From: Actinomycetota bacterium | GTDB lineage: Bacteria > Actinomycetota > Acidimicrobiia > IMCC26256 > PALSA-555 | Direction of reading: 5' to 3' | Length of the DNA stretch: 64,000 nucleotides | Assembly (NCBI GenBank): GCA_016870355.1 | Contig: VGBR01000008.1 | Location: forward strand, 1 to 64,000 | Shown: positions 4 to 35,868 of the stretch, one piece after another | How the letters are laid out: the number at the start of each line of letters is the position of its first letter | Position numbering within the stretch: the stretch's first letter is position 1 | Notes under the pieces: model-generated | The model's input: only the letters and a program-made list of their open reading frames with translations | Database searches by the model: none | Told to the model about the DNA's origin: nothing | Position numbers and translations under genes: made by a program

Positions 4-1998
4 TTGACGACGTACCTCCCCGATTCGCGCGCGCCTCGATCGGCATACCCCCCTGTGCCGAGGAAGCGGCCGCCGGCAGTGCCGGCGGCCGCTTCGCGCG
101 TCGACGGCGGCTTTGCCAACCGCCGGCGCACGGAGTCGTCGCGTGCGGCGACGACCTATGGAGGCGTCGGCGGCGGCTTTGCCAACCGCCGGCGCACGGA
201 GTCGTCGCGTGCGGCGACGACCTATGGAGGCGTCGGCGGCGGCTTTGCCAACCGCCGGCGCACGGAGTCGTCGCGTGTGACGACGACCCAGAGAGGCGCG
301 CGAGTCGCTAGACGAGCTCGACCGGTTCGACCGGGTTCGTCGCGGCTTCGGCTCCAGTGGCTGTTCGTGGCGATGCTCATCGTGTTCTCGTTGGTCGGGC
401 TCCGCCTGGTGCAGCTCCAGGCGCACGACGGCGCGCGGTACCACCGGCTCGGACTCGATCAGCGAGTGCGCACCGTCACGCTCGCGGCCGACCGAGGCTC
501 GATCTTCGACCGCAACGGCAAGGACCTGGCGCTGTCGATCTCCCGTTCGAGCATCTGGGCCGACCCCAAGCTCATCGACGACCCCATTGCGGCGGCCAAC
601 CAGCTCGCGCCACTGGTCGGCGTCGACGCGTTCACCCTGGCCGAGCGCTTCTCGGAGCCAGGTGCACGCTTTGTGTACGTCGCACGTCAGGTCGAACCGG
701 AAGTGGAGCGTCAGGTGAAGGCGCTCGATCTCGACGGGATCGGGTACGTGCCCGAGTCGAAGCGGTACTACCCGGCCTCTCCGCTGGCTGCGCCCTTGCT
801 CGGTTGGGTCGGGCTCGACAACAACGGCCTCGGTGGCCTCGAGTTCGGCGCGGAGTCCGTGCTCGCCGGTCGGCCAGGGCGAATGACCGTCGAACAGGAC
901 GCAGTCGGACGCAACTTGCCCGACGGCGAACGCCACGTGCAGGCGGCCGAGCGCGGTGCTGACCTCGTGCTGACCATCGACGAGTCGTTGCAGTTCGAGA
1001 CCGAGCGCGCGCTTGCGGAAGAGGTCACGCTCGCCGGCGCCAAGGGCGGCATTGCCGTGATCGCTGACACTCGCACGGGCGACATCCTGGCGATGGTGTC
1101 GGTCGATGGCGCGACCGACGCAGCACCGGCACACGCGGCCTACGCGAGCACTCCGAACCGTCCGCTCACCGACGTCTTCGAGCCCGGGTCGACTGCGAAG
1201 GTCGTGACGATAGCGGCCGCGCTCGAGGCCGGAATCGTCGCGCCCAGCACAGTGCTCCAGGTCCCGGGCAGCATCGTCGTCGACGGTGAGGAGTTCGCGG
1301 ACGTGAAGAGCCACCCCGCCGCGATGACTGTCGCTGACATCGTTCGTGAGTCGTCGAACGTCGGGACGATCCTGATCGCTCGTGCGCTCGGAGCGGAGCG
1401 CTTCGACGCCGCGCTGCGCTCGTTCGGGTTCGGCGCACCCACCGGGCTCGAGTTCCCTGGCGAGGCCGAGGGCATCCTGTTGCCGCTCGAGAGCTACAAC
1501 GCGACCAGCCTGGCGTCGATGCCGATCGGTAGCGGGATCGCGGTCACGGCGATGCAGATGCTCGACGTGTACCTGACGATCGCGAACGACGGTGTCGCGC
1601 GCACGCCGCGCCTGATCGCCGCAACGATCGACGCGGACGGCGAGCGTCACGAGACACCGCTGGGCAGCACCCGCCAGGTCGTGTCCGCGCAGACCGCACA
1701 GGCGATGCGCACGATGCTGGCCGGCGTCGTGAGCGGCGGCACGGGCACGAAGGCTCAGATCGTGGGCTACCAGGTCGCAGGGAAGACCGGTACCGCTCGA
1801 AAGCCGCCGTACGACGAGCCGCCATATCGATACGTTGCGTCGTTCGCAGGCTTCGCGCCCGCAGAGTCACCGCGACTCGCGGCGATCGTCGTGCTTGACG
1901 AGCCGACGAACAGCTACAGCGGTGGTCAGGTCGCCGCACCGGTGTTCGCTCGGATCATGCAGCATGCGCTGGCAGTCGAGCGGGTCCCGGCGTCGTGA
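4..1998 (+). CDS. ftsI: Penicillin-binding protein / FtsI-type transpeptidase (N-terminal start uncertain: TTG at 4, GTG at 277, or upstream of the window)
   Basis: TM segment LRLQWLFVAMLIVFSLVGLRLVQLQ, PBP dimerisation region (ADRGSIFDRNG), SxxK (GSTAK), SSN and KTGT motifs; located directly before murE. Confidence 0.9.
   Translation: MTTYLPDSRAPRSAYPPVPRKRPPAVPAAASRVDGGFANRRRTESSRAATTYGGVGGGFANRRRTESSRAATTYGGVGGGFANRRRTESSRVTTTQRGARVARRARPVRPGSSRLRLQWLFVAMLIVFSLVGLRLVQLQAHDGARYHRLGLDQRVRTVTLAADRGSIFDRNGKDLALSISRSSIWADPKLIDDPIAAANQLAPLVGVDAFTLAERFSEPGARFVYVARQVEPEVERQVKALDLDGIGYVPESKRYYPASPLAAPLLGWVGLDNNGLGGLEFGAESVLAGRPGRMTVEQDAVGRNLPDGERHVQAAERGADLVLTIDESLQFETERALAEEVTLAGAKGGIAVIADTRTGDILAMVSVDGATDAAPAHAAYASTPNRPLTDVFEPGSTAKVVTIAAALEAGIVAPSTVLQVPGSIVVDGEEFADVKSHPAAMTVADIVRESSNVGTILIARALGAERFDAALRSFGFGAPTGLEFPGEAEGILLPLESYNATSLASMPIGSGIAVTAMQMLDVYLTIANDGVARTPRLIAATIDADGERHETPLGSTRQVVSAQTAQAMRTMLAGVVSGGTGTKAQIVGYQVAGKTGTARKPPYDEPPYRYVASFAGFAPAESPRLAAIVVLDEPTNSYSGGQVAAPVFARIMQHALAVERVPAS
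63..95. repeat. 33-bp perfect inverted repeat (16-bp arms, 1-nt centre): gaagcggccgccggca-g-tgccggcggccgcttc
   Basis: Read directly; arms are exact reverse complements. Confidence 0.95.
106..290 (+). repeat. Tandem 66-bp repeat, two near-complete copies plus a diverged third (peptide GGFANRRRTESSRAATTYGGVG)
   Basis: Copies start at 106, 172 and 238; visible in both DNA and translation. Confidence 0.95.
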
Positions 1999-17748: not shown

Positions 17749-17774
17749 GGCGGGGAGGGCAGGCCCTCCCCGCC
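17749..17774. terminator. Hairpin between convergent divIVA and ileS: ggcggggagggc-ag-gccctccccgcc
   Basis: 12-bp perfect arms; no T-tract, so an intrinsic terminator is only inferred. Confidence 0.55.
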
Positions 17775-24564: not shown

Positions 24565-25949
24565 GACGGCGGCTGCTCTTCAGCTATCTCTCGCTCACGC
24601 TGTTCGTGCTGCTCGCGCTCGAGCTGCCACTCGGCGTCTCGTTCGCCAACGCCGAGCGACGTCGGCTCGTCAGCGACGTGCAGACCGAGGCGTTCGCGGT
24701 CGCGTTGCGGGCGGACGAAGTGTTCGCGGCCACCGGTGACACCGAGCTGAGCGAGCTCGTCGAGCACTTCCATCGTCGCACTGGTCACGGCGTGGTGGTG
24801 GTGTCGGAAGCGGGAACGGTGCGCGCCGCTGCCGGTCGTGGTGAGCCAGTCCTCAACAGCACGGTCAGCGACGACGGCGCGCTCGGCGTCGCCCTGCGTG
24901 GTCGTCAGGTGACGCGTGAACGCGAGTTCGCGGGTGAGGATGTCCTCGCGACCGCGGTGCCGGTGTTGGACCGAGATGAGGTCGTGGGCGCGGTGCGCGT
25001 GTCGTCGTCACTCGACGTGGTTGCGGAGCGCACCCAGCGGAACTGGATGTTGCTGGCGGCTCTCGGAGGAGTGGTGTCCCTGGTCGTGCTGCTCGTCAGC
25101 GTGCTCCTCGCGCGTTCGTTCACCCGCCCGTTGGCGGCGCTCGACGCGGGCGCGGCTCGTCTGGGGCGCGGTGACCTGCGAGCCCGTGTGCCTGTGCCCG
25201 ATGACCCACCGGAGCTGCGCGGGTTGGCCGAGTCCTTCAACGCGACTGCGGAGCAGCTCGAGGCGCTGGTCCGATCGCAACAGAGCTTCGTGGCCGACGC
25301 ATCGCATGAGCTGCGCACTCCGCTGGCCGCGCTCAGCCTGCGACTGGAGAACCTCGAAGCCGAAGGTGGCGCCGAGGACCTCGACGGTGCACTCGCCGAA
25401 GCGCACCGGCTGTCACGACTCGTCGATGGTCTGCTCACGCTGGCGCGCGCGGAGGACGCGGTGCGAGCGGTGTCCGAAGTCGAGCTGCGCCCGTTGATCG
25501 AAGCGCGACTCGACGCCTGGGAAGCAGTCGCGACGGAGAGAGGTGTGGAGCTCGAAGTTGACGTGGCCGATGTGCAGGTCTGGAGCGCGCCTGGTCGACT
25601 CGAGCAGGTCCTCGACAACCTGCTGAGCAATGCGCTGGACGTGGCGCCCACAGACACGACGATCAAGATCGAAGCTGGAGCCGCCGCGCAGCACGTCGTC
25701 CTCGAGGTGCGCGACGCGGGTCCGGGGATGACCGCGGCACAACGGGCGCGTGCGTTCGATCGCTTCTGGCGCGCCGACCCGTCGCGCAAGGAGCGAGGCG
25801 GCTCAGGGTTGGGCTTGGCCATCGTGCGGCGCTTGGTGACTGCGGACGGCGGCACTGTGACCCTTGGGTCCGCGCCCGAAGGAGGTCTCGCGGTGACGAT
25901 GCGGCTCGTAGGCAGCCGTCAGCCGGTGACGGCGTCTGCCGTGCCGTGA
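24561..25949 (+). CDS. Sensor histidine kinase (HAMP, HisKA, HATPase)
   Basis: DASHELRTPLAALSLRLE, DNLLSNALD, GSGLGLAIVRRLV. Confidence 0.92.
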   Translation: MRRRLLFSYLSLTLFVLLALELPLGVSFANAERRRLVSDVQTEAFAVALRADEVFAATGDTELSELVEHFHRRTGHGVVVVSEAGTVRAAAGRGEPVLNSTVSDDGALGVALRGRQVTREREFAGEDVLATAVPVLDRDEVVGAVRVSSSLDVVAERTQRNWMLLAALGGVVSLVVLLVSVLLARSFTRPLAALDAGAARLGRGDLRARVPVPDDPPELRGLAESFNATAEQLEALVRSQQSFVADASHELRTPLAALSLRLENLEAEGGAEDLDGALAEAHRLSRLVDGLLTLARAEDAVRAVSEVELRPLIEARLDAWEAVATERGVELEVDVADVQVWSAPGRLEQVLDNLLSNALDVAPTDTTIKIEAGAAAQHVVLEVRDAGPGMTAAQRARAFDRFWRADPSRKERGGSGLGLAIVRRLVTADGGTVTLGSAPEGGLAVTMRLVGSRQPVTASAVP

Positions 25950-26406: not shown

Positions 26407-27501
26407 GTGCTGGCTGACGCCGTTCGTCCGGTCTACGACGGCCCCGGTCTGAGCACCCTCGTTCCCGCGATCCTCTCGACCCCACGGGCTGACTGGTTGC
26501 CCGCGTCCGCGCGTGAAGCACGCAGCGTCGTGCTCTTGGTCCTCGACGGGCTCGGGTGGGACGCACTCGACGCGAACCGGACCCGCCTCACGAACCTGGC
26601 TTCGCTCGACGGGGGACCGGTGCCGACCGTCGTCCCGTCGACCACTGCGACCGCACTCACCTCCCTCACGACGGGGCTCGCGCCGGCCCAGCACGGTGTC
26701 ACCGGATTCCGCGTGCGACTCGACGGCGGCGTCCTCAACATCCTCTCCTGGCAGGGTGTGAAGCCTCGTCCGCCCGACCCTCGCTCGGTGCAACGGCATG
26801 CAGCCTTCCTGCGGCGCGAGGTTCCGGTCGTGACCAAGGCCGAGTTCCGCAACAGCGGGTTCAGCACCGTGCAGCACGACGGTGCTCGGGTCCACGGCTG
26901 GACAGCGCTGTCGTCACTGGTGGAGCACTGCCGCCGGCTCGTCGAGGCAGGGGAGCCGTTCGTGTACGCGTACTACCCGGGTGTGGACACCGTCGCGCAT
27001 CATCACGGGCTGCGCGACGGCTTCTACGACGCCGAGCTGGGTGCCGCTGACCGCCTCGTGGGTGATCTGCTCGATGTGCTTCCCGACGAGTGCGCACTCG
27101 TCGTGACCGCTGACCATGGTCAGGTGCACATGGGGCAGGACAGCTGGCTTGCGCTGGGCGTGTCGAGCACGCTCGTCGACGTCTGCTCTGGCGACGGCCG
27201 ATTCCGATACCTGCACGCGCGCAAAGGCGCGGCGCGCGAGCTGGTCGCCGAGGCGCGCAAGGAGCACGAACGTCACGCGTGGGTGTTGTCGCGCGAGGAG
27301 CTGCTCGACGAAGGTTGGCTGGGACCCGATCCATCGCCCGCGACACGGGCCCGAGTCGGCGATGTGGTGCTCGCGGCCCGCGACGCGGTGGGGTTCGTCG
27401 ACCCCGAGCTGCCGGTCGAAGCCCGTCTCCGCAGTGCGCACGGCTCTCTCACCGAGGCAGAGATGCTGGTCCCCGTCGTCGCCGGGCGGGGGCGGGGCTG
27501 A
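26407..27501 (+). CDS. Type I phosphodiesterase/nucleotide pyrophosphatase-like (alkaline phosphatase superfamily)
   Basis: VVLLVLDGLGWDAL, PSTTATALTSLTTGLAPAQHGVTGF, TADHGQVHMG. Confidence 0.85.
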   Translation: MLADAVRPVYDGPGLSTLVPAILSTPRADWLPASAREARSVVLLVLDGLGWDALDANRTRLTNLASLDGGPVPTVVPSTTATALTSLTTGLAPAQHGVTGFRVRLDGGVLNILSWQGVKPRPPDPRSVQRHAAFLRREVPVVTKAEFRNSGFSTVQHDGARVHGWTALSSLVEHCRRLVEAGEPFVYAYYPGVDTVAHHHGLRDGFYDAELGAADRLVGDLLDVLPDECALVVTADHGQVHMGQDSWLALGVSSTLVDVCSGDGRFRYLHARKGAARELVAEARKEHERHAWVLSREELLDEGWLGPDPSPATRARVGDVVLAARDAVGFVDPELPVEARLRSAHGSLTEAEMLVPVVAGRGRG

Positions 27502-27538: not shown

Positions 27539-27544
27539 TACAGT
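27539..27544 (+). promoter_or_regulatory. Candidate -10 (TACAGT) for dnaE
   Basis: TANNNT overlapping the first of two palindromes upstream of dnaE. Confidence 0.35.
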
Positions 27545-27562
27545 GCGATTCGAATCACACTG
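27541..27562. promoter_or_regulatory. Imperfect palindrome cagtgCgattc|gaatcAcactg upstream of dnaE
   Basis: 11-nt arms with one mismatch. Confidence 0.7.
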
Positions 27563-27564
27563 AT

Positions 27565-27593
27565 GTAGTTCTCCACAGGGTGTGGAGAACTAC
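27565..27593. promoter_or_regulatory. Perfect palindrome gtagttctccaca-ggg-tgtggagaactac upstream of dnaE
   Basis: 13-bp perfect arms, 3-nt centre. Confidence 0.85.
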
Positions 27594-27616
27594 CCACCGG
27601 CGTAGGGGGAGCGGCA

Positions 27617-30600
27617 CTGAGCAAGTCCTTCGTCCACCTCCACCTGCACACCGAGTACTCGATGCTCGACGGCGCGTCCCGGATCGGCGACGTCGTCGAG
27701 CGCGCGGTCGCCGACGGGCAACCGGCCGTCGGGATCACCGACCACGGGAACATGTACGGCGTCCTCCCGATGTACCAGGCCGCGCGCGAGGCCGGCATCA
27801 AGTGCATCGTCGGTGAAGAGGCCTACTTCACGACGGGGGACCGACGCGACAAGCCGCGCCGAGCCGACTCCGACATCTTCCATCTCACACTGCTCGCCGA
27901 GAGCGACGTCGGCTACCACAACCTCATCAAGGTGTCGTCGGGCGCGTACCTCGACGGCTTCCACTACCGACCGCGCGCCGACTTCGAGCTGCTCGAGCAC
28001 CACGGCGAGGGTCTCATCGGCACGTCCGGCTGCCTCGGCAGCGCGGTGTGTCAAAGGTTCCTCGCGGGAGACGACGCCGGTGCGCGTGAGCTCGCGGCGA
28101 GGTTCCAGGACGTGCTCGGCCGAGACAGCTTCTTCATCGAGCTCCAGGATCACGGGCTCGCCGACCAGCACCGCGTGAACCATCGGCTCATCGAGCTCGC
28201 GAGATCGATCGACGCGCCACTGCTCGCCACCAACGACAGCCACTACACGCATCGTGACGATGCCGAGGCGCACGCGGCGCTGCTGTGTGTGCAGACCGGC
28301 ACGACACTCGATGACCCGAACCGGTTCAAGTTCGACGCGAACGAGTTCTACCTGAAGACGGCGGCTGAGATGCGCTCGCTGTTCTCGGCCTACGAGGAGG
28401 CATGCGACAACACGCTATGGATCGCCGAGCGGGCAAACGTCGACATCGAGTTTGGCAACGCAGTGCTCCCTGCGTTCGCGACGCCTGAGGGTCACGACGA
28501 GGACTCGTATCTCCGCGAGCTCACGCTGGCGGGCGCCCAGGAGCGCTACGGAAGTCCGCTGCCGCCGCACGTCGCCGAACGTGTCGAGTTCGAGCTGGGT
28601 GTCATCGAGACCATGGGGTTCTCCGCGTACTTCCTCGTGGTGTGGGACCTCGTGCGGTACGCGCGCGAACGCGGGATCCGCGTCGGTCCGGGAAGAGGGA
28701 GCGCCGCGGGATCGTGCGTCGCGTACTCGTTGCGGATCGTCGACATCGATCCGATCCGCTACGACCTGCTCTTCGAGCGGTTCCTCAACCCCGGGCGCAA
28801 GCAGATGCCCGACATCGACATGGACTTCGACTCGCGGTACCGAGGCGAGATGATCCGCTACGCGGCGCAGCGCTACGGCGAGGACCATGTCGCGCAGATC
28901 GTGACGTTCTCGACGATCAAGGCGCGGGCCGCAGTGCGCGATGCATCACGGGTGCTCGGCTACCCGTACGGGGTCGGCGACAAGATCGCGAAGCTGATGC
29001 CGCCGCTGATCATGGGACGCGACACCCCGCTCACCGCCTGCCTGGAGCTCCAGCGCGGGCATGAAGACGGCTTCAAGATGGCGGGTGAGCTGCGCGAGCT
29101 CTACACCGCCGACCCCGACGCGAAGCGCGTCATCGACGTGGCGACCGGCCTCGAGAACCTTCGCCGCCAAGATGGCATCCACGCCGCCGCGGTGGTGATC
29201 ACGCGTGACCCCCTCACCGAATACCTGCCCGTGCAACGGGGCCGCACGCCGGCGGGCGACATCGCCGAGGGCCCGATCGTCACGCAGTACGAGATGCACG
29301 GCGTCGAGGATCTCGGACTCCTCAAGATGGACTTCCTTGGCCTGCGCAACCTCGACGTGATCGAGGTGACGCTGGACCTCGTGGCTGCGAGCACCGGCAC
29401 TCGCCCCGACATCGATGCGATCCCGCTCGATGACGCGCGCACCTTCAAGATGCTCCAACGCGGCGACACCGTGGGCGTGTTCCAGCTCGAAGGTGGGCCG
29501 GTTCGCTCGCTGCTGCGATCGCTGGCGCCGACAGGGTTCGAGGACATCGCCGCCCTCACGGCCCTGTATCGACCCGGGCCGATGGCCCAGAACTGGCACA
29601 ACGAGTACGCGGACCGCAAGAACGGTCGCAAGGCCGTCGACTACCCGCACGACGACCTCGTGCCGATCCTCGAGCCCACCTACGGCTTGATGATCTACCA
29701 AGAGCAGCTGATGCGAGTCGCGCAGCGACTCGCCGGCTACTCGCTCGAAGAAGCCGACAACCTCCGCAAGGCGACGGGCAAGAAGGACCGCAAGCTCATC
29801 GCCAAGGAGCGATCGAAGTTCGTCGACGGCTGCGTCGCACAAGGCCACGACCAAGCGTTTGGTGAGCGCATCTTCGACACCATCGAGCCGTTCGCTGACT
29901 ATTCCTTCAACAAGTCGCACTCCGTCGGTTACGGCTACGTCGCCTACCAAACCGCGTATCTGAAGGCGAACCATCCGGTCGAGTACCTGGCCGCGCTGCT
30001 GACGAGCGTGAAGTCCAACAAGGACCAGACCGCGGTGTTCCTCAACGAATGCCGACAGATGGACATCCCCGTCCTCGTGCCCGACGTGAACGAGTCGGAG
30101 CAGGACTTCACCGTGCGCACGACGCCCGACGGTCGCAACGCGATCCGGTACGGGCTATCGGCCGTGCGCAACGTGGGGGAGGGCGTCGTCGCGCTCATCA
30201 GCGCCGCCCGTGATGCCAGCGGTCCATTCACCGACTTCCACGACTTCTGCGAGCGGGTCGACCCTGGTGCGCTCAACAAGCGCACGGTGGAGTCACTGAT
30301 CAAGGCTGGCGCGTTCGACTCTCTTGGTCACGCGCGCAAGGGTCTCGTCGACGTCCACGAGCAGATCATCGAGGACGCAGTCGGTCGTCGTCGCCGCCGC
30401 GACCAGGGGAACTTCAGCTTCTTCGACCTGGAAGAGGGTGGCTTCGGTGAGGATCCGGGCTTCTCTCACCAGCTGGAGATCACCACCGACGAGTACGTGA
30501 AGTCACAGCGCCTCGGGTTCGAGAAGGAGATGCTCGGGCTCTACGTGAGTGAGCACCCGCTGCTCGGTGCCCAAGGGCGGCTCAAGCGGTACATCGAATG

Positions 30601-31123
30601 CACCCTGTCGGACCTGCGCGAGCTCCGTGACGGTGAGATGCGCGTGGTCGGCGGCATCGTCACCACGTTGTCGCGCAAGTACACGCGCAAGGGCGACTTC
30701 ATGGCGACGTTCGTGCTCGAGGACCTCGGTGCTGCGCTCGAGGTCATGGTGTTCCCGCGCACGATGACGAACTACGGCCACCTGCTCGAAGACGACGCGA
30801 TCATCTGTGTGAAGGGCCGGCTCGACCTGCGTGACGACCAGCCGAAGGTCATCGCGATGGAGATCACCCGACCCGAGATCGCGCTCGACCATGAATCCGA
30901 CCCGGTGCGAATTTGCACCAAGGCGACCGTGTTCACTGACGAGCGGGTGCAGCAGCTGAAAGACGTGCTGCTCCAGCATCCAGGCGACAGTGCCGCGTAC
31001 GTGCAGCTCGAAGGCACCCAGCGAACGACGGTCCTCCGGCTGGCCGATGAGTACCGCGTCGAGCCCAGTGCAGGCCTCTACGCAGAGCTGCGGGTGCTGT
31101 TCGGCCCTGACTGCCTGCGCTGA
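27617..31123 (+). CDS. dnaE: DNA polymerase III alpha subunit (probable CTG start at 27617; first ATG at 27662 is inside the PHP motif region)
   Basis: SFVHLHLHTEYSMLDGASRI PHP motif, PDIDMDFDSRYR, YQEQLMRVAQ; agggggag 7 nt upstream of CTG. Confidence 0.95.
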   Translation: MSKSFVHLHLHTEYSMLDGASRIGDVVERAVADGQPAVGITDHGNMYGVLPMYQAAREAGIKCIVGEEAYFTTGDRRDKPRRADSDIFHLTLLAESDVGYHNLIKVSSGAYLDGFHYRPRADFELLEHHGEGLIGTSGCLGSAVCQRFLAGDDAGARELAARFQDVLGRDSFFIELQDHGLADQHRVNHRLIELARSIDAPLLATNDSHYTHRDDAEAHAALLCVQTGTTLDDPNRFKFDANEFYLKTAAEMRSLFSAYEEACDNTLWIAERANVDIEFGNAVLPAFATPEGHDEDSYLRELTLAGAQERYGSPLPPHVAERVEFELGVIETMGFSAYFLVVWDLVRYARERGIRVGPGRGSAAGSCVAYSLRIVDIDPIRYDLLFERFLNPGRKQMPDIDMDFDSRYRGEMIRYAAQRYGEDHVAQIVTFSTIKARAAVRDASRVLGYPYGVGDKIAKLMPPLIMGRDTPLTACLELQRGHEDGFKMAGELRELYTADPDAKRVIDVATGLENLRRQDGIHAAAVVITRDPLTEYLPVQRGRTPAGDIAEGPIVTQYEMHGVEDLGLLKMDFLGLRNLDVIEVTLDLVAASTGTRPDIDAIPLDDARTFKMLQRGDTVGVFQLEGGPVRSLLRSLAPTGFEDIAALTALYRPGPMAQNWHNEYADRKNGRKAVDYPHDDLVPILEPTYGLMIYQEQLMRVAQRLAGYSLEEADNLRKATGKKDRKLIAKERSKFVDGCVAQGHDQAFGERIFDTIEPFADYSFNKSHSVGYGYVAYQTAYLKANHPVEYLAALLTSVKSNKDQTAVFLNECRQMDIPVLVPDVNESEQDFTVRTTPDGRNAIRYGLSAVRNVGEGVVALISAARDASGPFTDFHDFCERVDPGALNKRTVESLIKAGAFDSLGHARKGLVDVHEQIIEDAVGRRRRRDQGNFSFFDLEEGGFGEDPGFSHQLEITTDEYVKSQRLGFEKEMLGLYVSEHPLLGAQGRLKRYIECTLSDLRELRDGEMRVVGGIVTTLSRKYTRKGDFMATFVLEDLGAALEVMVFPRTMTNYGHLLEDDAIICVKGRLDLRDDQPKVIAMEITRPEIALDHESDPVRICTKATVFTDERVQQLKDVLLQHPGDSAAYVQLEGTQRTTVLRLADEYRVEPSAGLYAELRVLFGPDCLR

Positions 31124-35839: not shown

Positions 35840-35868
35840 GCTGCACCGCAGGGTACCTGCGGTGCAGC
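35840..35868. repeat. Intergenic palindrome gctgcaccgcagg-gta-cctgcggtgcagc
   Basis: 13-bp perfect arms, 3-nt loop. Confidence 0.92.

Follow-up and report, generated by a model that had tools for sequence, protein, structure and literature searches.

The dnaE gene in the window, by which we mean the whole 64-kb stretch of DNA analysed here, carries a conserved palindromic unit, GAATCACA-CTGA-TGTAGTTC (27552–27571), that overlies its predicted transcription start. The best reading, to which we assign a probability of roughly 0.7, is that this unit is an operator at +1 of dnaE for a dimeric regulator, other than LexA and NrdR, of a replication, recombination, and dNTP regulon, and that it is coupled to DnaA at dnaE. 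The conservation of the motif, its position in the promoter, its co-occurrence at the genes described below, its spacing, and its independence from the SOS and NrdR boxes were computed, and from sequence we infer protein binding, repression, a role for DnaA, and the likely nature of the regulator. How bacteria set the amount of the replicative polymerase is little understood, and to our knowledge dnaE has seldom been seen as specifically regulated. One operator that links dnaE with ribonucleotide reductase, recA, and recO across a whole class offers a concrete way to ask how little-studied actinobacteria match their replication capacity to initiation, as well as a defined bait for finding its regulator.

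Upstream of dnaE, the preliminary description had placed a TACAGT −10 candidate and two consecutive palindromes at 27541–27593, all of which are present exactly where described. The gene before them, for a type I phosphodiesterase/nucleotide pyrophosphatase, is an open reading frame at 26407–27501 (+ strand) that matches Pfam PF01663 (E = 2.9e-27), and its end is followed, after 37 nt, by the candidate dnaE −10 hexamer TACAGT (27539–27544, + strand). Palindrome 1 (27541–27562, CAGTGCGATTC|GAATCACACTG) contains one mismatched pair, and palindrome 2 (27565–27577/27581–27593) has perfect arms of 13 bp around a GGG loop. Perfect 13-bp arms with a loop of at most 8 nt occur at three places in the window, against an order-1 Markov expectation of 0.0 per 64 kb, and near-palindromic 22-mers like palindrome 1 occur seven times, against about two expected. 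Chance would hardly produce the 13-bp repeat in this window; on its own, the 22-mer near-palindrome would be unremarkable. Three other perfect G+C-rich hairpins in the window (63–95, 17749–17774, and 35840–35868) are without clear T-runs and look like gene-end hairpins.

The dnaE coding sequence (27617–31123, + strand), which encodes the DNA polymerase III alpha subunit (Pfam PHP, 7–179; DNA_pol3_alpha, E = 4.1e-94), begins with a CTG codon behind a Shine–Dalgarno sequence, AGGGGGAG (27604–27611, + strand), and gives LSKSFVHLHLHTEYSMLDG; the relatives were aligned from this codon. Because dnaE starts at this CTG, its leader is short. The ATG at 27662 chosen by the ORF caller, in place of the CTG at 27617–27619, would remove the HxH motif of the PHP domain.

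For the comparison, dnaE upstream regions were collected from relatives at the levels of genus, family, order, and class, together with those of named genome records. The loci are mostly from class Acidimicrobiia, and the named records, a few of which repeat earlier genomes, are nearly all uncultured, with the complete genome of strain IMCC26256 (CP011489), a candidate cultured carrier of the operator, in addition. The unit was present in 43 of the 47 relatives and in 55 of the 80 named records, with the dnaE score below 14 in 25 of the 80; the relatives, mostly metagenome assemblies, were counted individually and without correction for kinship. The consensus over 88 distinct dnaE upstream regions is GAATnACA-N4-TGTnATTC (23.5 bits), and A2, A6, C7, A8, T13, G14, T15, and T19 are kept in 95–100% of these loci. 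The operator of the window scores 27.0 bits, and the next best place in the window 10.5. Outside the class, the unit was found upstream of dnaE in about 15 genomes of other classes and was absent from others, including three with larger genomes.

Judged from these alignments, the conserved operator is the right half of palindrome 1 together with the left half of palindrome 2, and the remainder of palindrome 2 is an inverted pair of DnaA-box-like 9-mers, whereas the outer arms of both palindromes are private to this genome or its genus. An extra half-site, TGCGATTC (27544–27551), abuts the operator and completes palindrome 1, and is not kept outside the genus; a degenerate extra half-site, GAACTACC (27587–27594), makes palindrome 2 perfect and is not kept in relatives. 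Neither half-site, nor the operator, is assigned to a strand. Of the first proposal, a regulatory role at the dnaE promoter is supported, with a DNA operator as its most likely form, but the palindromes as first drawn are not the two operators, and it is the unit across their junction, rather than the palindromes themselves, that has been conserved upstream of dnaE.

In 70 of the 88 dnaE loci, the 22 nt before the unit contain a TANNNT hexamer, as compared with 7.7 expected; it starts most often 6–10 or 15–18 nt before the unit, and the distance to the −10 is nearly fixed. Because the −10 lies just upstream, the unit would cover approximately +1 to +20 of dnaE, which is the classical place for a repressor operator, relative to the start site that we infer from the hexamer. 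A dimeric DNA-binding regulator is thus predicted to occupy 27552–27571, over the predicted dnaE start, and, when bound, most likely blocks RNA polymerase at dnaE.

The same stretch could instead be the terminator of the upstream phosphodiesterase gene, as a perfect hairpin lies 63 nt past its stop codon. However, the hairpin is followed by no T-run, and it is therefore not an intrinsic terminator; no terminator was detected at this place. In addition, a conserved −10 stands just ahead of the unit in most relatives, and the unit is kept at recA, nrdJ, and recO, whose upstream genes differ. A terminator is thus highly improbable.

With regard to the sequence that adjoins the operator, TCCACA starts 0 or 1 nt past the unit in 44 of the 88 dnaE loci, and an inverted TGTGGA partner is present in 32, at spacings of mostly 2–4, 14–18, and 26 nt, with one value only between 5 and 13. 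Steps of about 11–12 bp separate these clusters and suggest proteins bound along the same face of the helix; close relatives enter the clusters as separate counts, and hence no probability is given. The TT of the operator end and TCCACA together read TTCTCCACA, which is one base from the actinobacterial DnaA box TTGTCCACA of M. tuberculosis and S. coelicolor (PMC4285127). In the window, a 9-mer within one base of TTGTCCACA was found at 27569–27577 (TTCTCCACA, + strand), sharing the last 3 nt of the operator, and, inverted, at 27581–27589 (TGTGGAGAA, which on the − strand reads TTCTCCACA), with 3 nt between the two. These are the only two TYNTCCACA boxes in the 64 kb. At the dnaA loci of the clade, 1–8 such boxes were observed per locus, mostly 3–5 per 3 kb with a background of 0.09, and in most of eight dnaA regions an inverted pair of such 9-mers, 10–24 bp apart, lies near one end of dnaA. 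The 9-mers of the window are thus like DnaA boxes in sequence, in their inverted pairing, and in their presence at dnaA as well, but they differ by one base and are fused to a separate palindrome. The overlap between the operator and a DnaA-box-like site that has an inverted partner makes it probable that, at dnaE, DnaA either occupies DNA next to the regulator or competes with it, and such involvement of DnaA would link production of the replicative polymerase to the initiation state.

The other explanation offered for the palindromes was an RNA hairpin in the leader of dnaE; it would span 27565–27593 and act on translation or stability. The predicted fold is strong (−35 kcal/mol for 79 nt, z = −4.3, with all 13 pairs formed), and the TCCACA...TGTGGA inverted pair is kept in the 32 loci described above. 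However, the outer five pairs of the 13-bp hairpin are lost even within the genus, and the stem positions of the conserved 20-bp palindrome do not covary (0.151, versus 0.176 in shuffles), so that the compensatory changes anticipated in both arms were not observed. The loop lengths jump (about 3, 16, and 26), with the box spacings changing in steps of approximately one DNA turn. In five genomes the cassette is inverted, with the boxes only upstream of the unit and, in four of the five, a TANNNT downstream, and the cassette is also found in a convergent intergenic region, next to crgA. A search of Rfam returned no family and one chance match below threshold. These results indicate that a DNA element fits better, and an RNA hairpin is quite unlikely.

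The operator is also found elsewhere in these genomes. The strict pattern gave 0–4 sites per genome, as compared with 0–1 for the reversed control, in 12 genomes. A profile search of 25 genomes, with gene calls around the matches, located the operator at recA, recO, the nrdR–nrdJ interval, a WhiB-like gene, and the crgA/Zn-ribbon interval, each in several families. In one to three genomes the search also placed it at dnaB, scpA, a UvrD-like gene, and the gene of a small protein adjacent to ku; of the weak matches left over, many are probably chance. For the ortholog test, in which 330 nt upstream were scored in 30 genomes per gene at a threshold of at least 16 bits, the matrix was trained on the dnaE sites only, and therefore the recA, nrdJ, and recO sites did not shape it. 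Sites at or above the threshold were observed upstream of recA in 22 of 30 genomes, of nrdJ in 24 of 30, and of recO, whose sites are often weak, in 12 of 30. The lexA regions, taken from largely the same genomes as a negative control, gave 0 of 30, and shuffled sequences gave 0 of 600, with a 99th percentile of 8.3. The operator occupies the −10/+1 region at recA and nrdJ and lies around the −10 at recO; it is accompanied by an SOS box at recA, by NrdR boxes at nrdJ, and by DnaA-like boxes at dnaE. Because this common operator stands at dnaE, recA, nrdJ, and recO, and in some genomes at a WhiB-like gene, dnaB, and scpA, it would define a regulon of replication, recombination, and dNTP functions.

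Early matches, at recA and beside lexA, initially pointed to LexA. A diverged LexA (SOS) operator would be consistent with recA and recO being damage genes and with a palindromic unit that overlaps the promoter, and the SOS box of Actinomycetota is likewise a short palindrome over repair-gene promoters. At recA both are found: the SOS box comes first, and the new unit follows it after a few bases, around the −10. However, the SOS box, GAAC-N4-GTTC, differs from the unit in sequence and spacing, and the unit covers dnaE, nrdJ, and recO. Whereas the unit is absent from all 30 lexA upstream regions, the canonical box is present in 29 of them, as well as in 27 of 30 recA promoters, most of them alongside the unit, so that lexA and most recA promoters carry ordinary SOS boxes. 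A diverged LexA operator is therefore extremely improbable. This agrees with the earlier remark that palindrome 1 contains TTCGAA and yet is no SOS box, as GAAC-N4-GTTC is absent from the operator. In the window, the canonical sequence occurs at 24918 (within coding sequence), 33875, and 49489.

Two observations concern recA itself. In the assembly of the window, recA is present in duplicate (contigs C23, 11785–12587, and C27, 3320–4120); the copies are identical over 224 residues, lie near contig ends, and differ in part of their upstream sequence, which may reflect a duplication or a strain mix. In five genomes, the recA match is broken at the same residue (about 196) by approximately 1–1.2 kb, mostly one long open frame, which is probably an intein.

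For nrdJ, the unit lies at the promoter, between nrdR and nrdJ, and NrdR senses dATP/ATP; the unit might thus be an operator for NrdR, whose regulon would then also take in dnaE, recA, and recO. Boxes for NrdR come in pairs, spaced by about three turns of the helix (PMC9110341, PMC12051234). Like the new unit, the NrdR box pair is located near +1 of the nrdJ promoter, and both are present at nrdJ, where NrdR's own box pairs (e.g., CACCCCCATCTCGCGG and CCACAACATCTTGTGG, with a 31-bp pitch) adjoin the unit, in agreement with the NrdR literature. In contrast to the two 16-bp C-8-G boxes of NrdR, about 31 bp apart, the new unit has 20 bp and C-6-G spacing, and dnaE has only one such palindrome. 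NrdR was rejected on these grounds as the regulator, and such an extended NrdR regulon is very unlikely.

Other candidates for the regulator were also rejected. An XRE protein is encoded immediately after a strong site in one genome but lacks a close ortholog in relatives; a MerR-B12 protein, whose gene neighbours an nrd gene in one genome, is without an ortholog in the genome of the window; and the Rrf2 neighbour of dnaE is kept at many loci where the motif has been lost. A CRP/GlxR site (TGTGA-N6-TCACA) was rejected because TGCGA-TTCGAA-TCACA is found only in this genome, the left half being absent from relatives. The RDR/DdrO palindrome of Deinococcus likewise serves recA and other repair genes as a further operator that is independent of LexA, but its sequence differs from that of the unit and it is not known to be linked to DnaA boxes. 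The consensus motifs of DdrO (RDRM) and PafBC look different by eye from the operator. MtrA acts on oriC in a relative (PMC4285127). Its box in M. tuberculosis, however, consists of direct repeats of GTCACAgcg (PMC4285127), similar to GTCACAGCG, whereas the operator is an inverted repeat whose half-site can have C, T, or G at position 5. A plasmid search gave no match, and among open-licence PMC papers, judged by title and abstract, we found none on the motif or on LexA in Acidimicrobiia.

The cassette of palindrome and DnaA boxes was also found past the 3′ end of crgA in 12 of 12 genomes examined, in one of them about 0.7 kb beyond. Its orientation is constant, the palindrome facing crgA and the boxes lying away from it, and where a small Zn-ribbon gene is visible, that gene converges on the cassette from the opposite side. 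Because this copy lies between convergent 3′ ends, the element is not solely a promoter element; the cassette cannot block the promoter of either neighbour, and promoter blocking leaves it unexplained. The crgA copy is a possible non-promoter replication-control site, for which DnaA titration or reactivation is the obvious idea.

The whole element might then be mainly a chromosomal DnaA-binding site for titration or reactivation, with its placement at dnaE secondary and the palindrome protein an accessory factor. The crgA cassette, which keeps the same order and has 2–3 boxes, is consistent with this, as is the finding that in two genomes it shares a contig with dnaA, at distances of about 15 and 21 kb; in one complete genome the distance is about 337 kb. 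However, the promoters of recA, nrdJ, and recO have the palindrome but mostly lack DnaA-like boxes, and the −10 is at a nearly fixed distance at dnaE, so that this explanation is unlikely. Starting from the operator reading, we propose only tentatively, at somewhat less than even odds, that a previously undescribed transcription factor of Acidimicrobiia, active in other actinomycetotal classes as well, runs a core replication regulon (dnaE, nrdJ, recA, and recO, and in places dnaB, scpA, and a whiB) together with DnaA, and that the crgA cassette may control the initiation cycle from outside any promoter, with a function like that of datA or DARS.

Two further sets of operator copies were observed. 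A strong copy lies beside ku, apparently before a gene for a small CxxC protein, in three genomes, and in six genomes the operator is found at the gene of a WhiB-family regulator, which could represent a second tier of the regulon.
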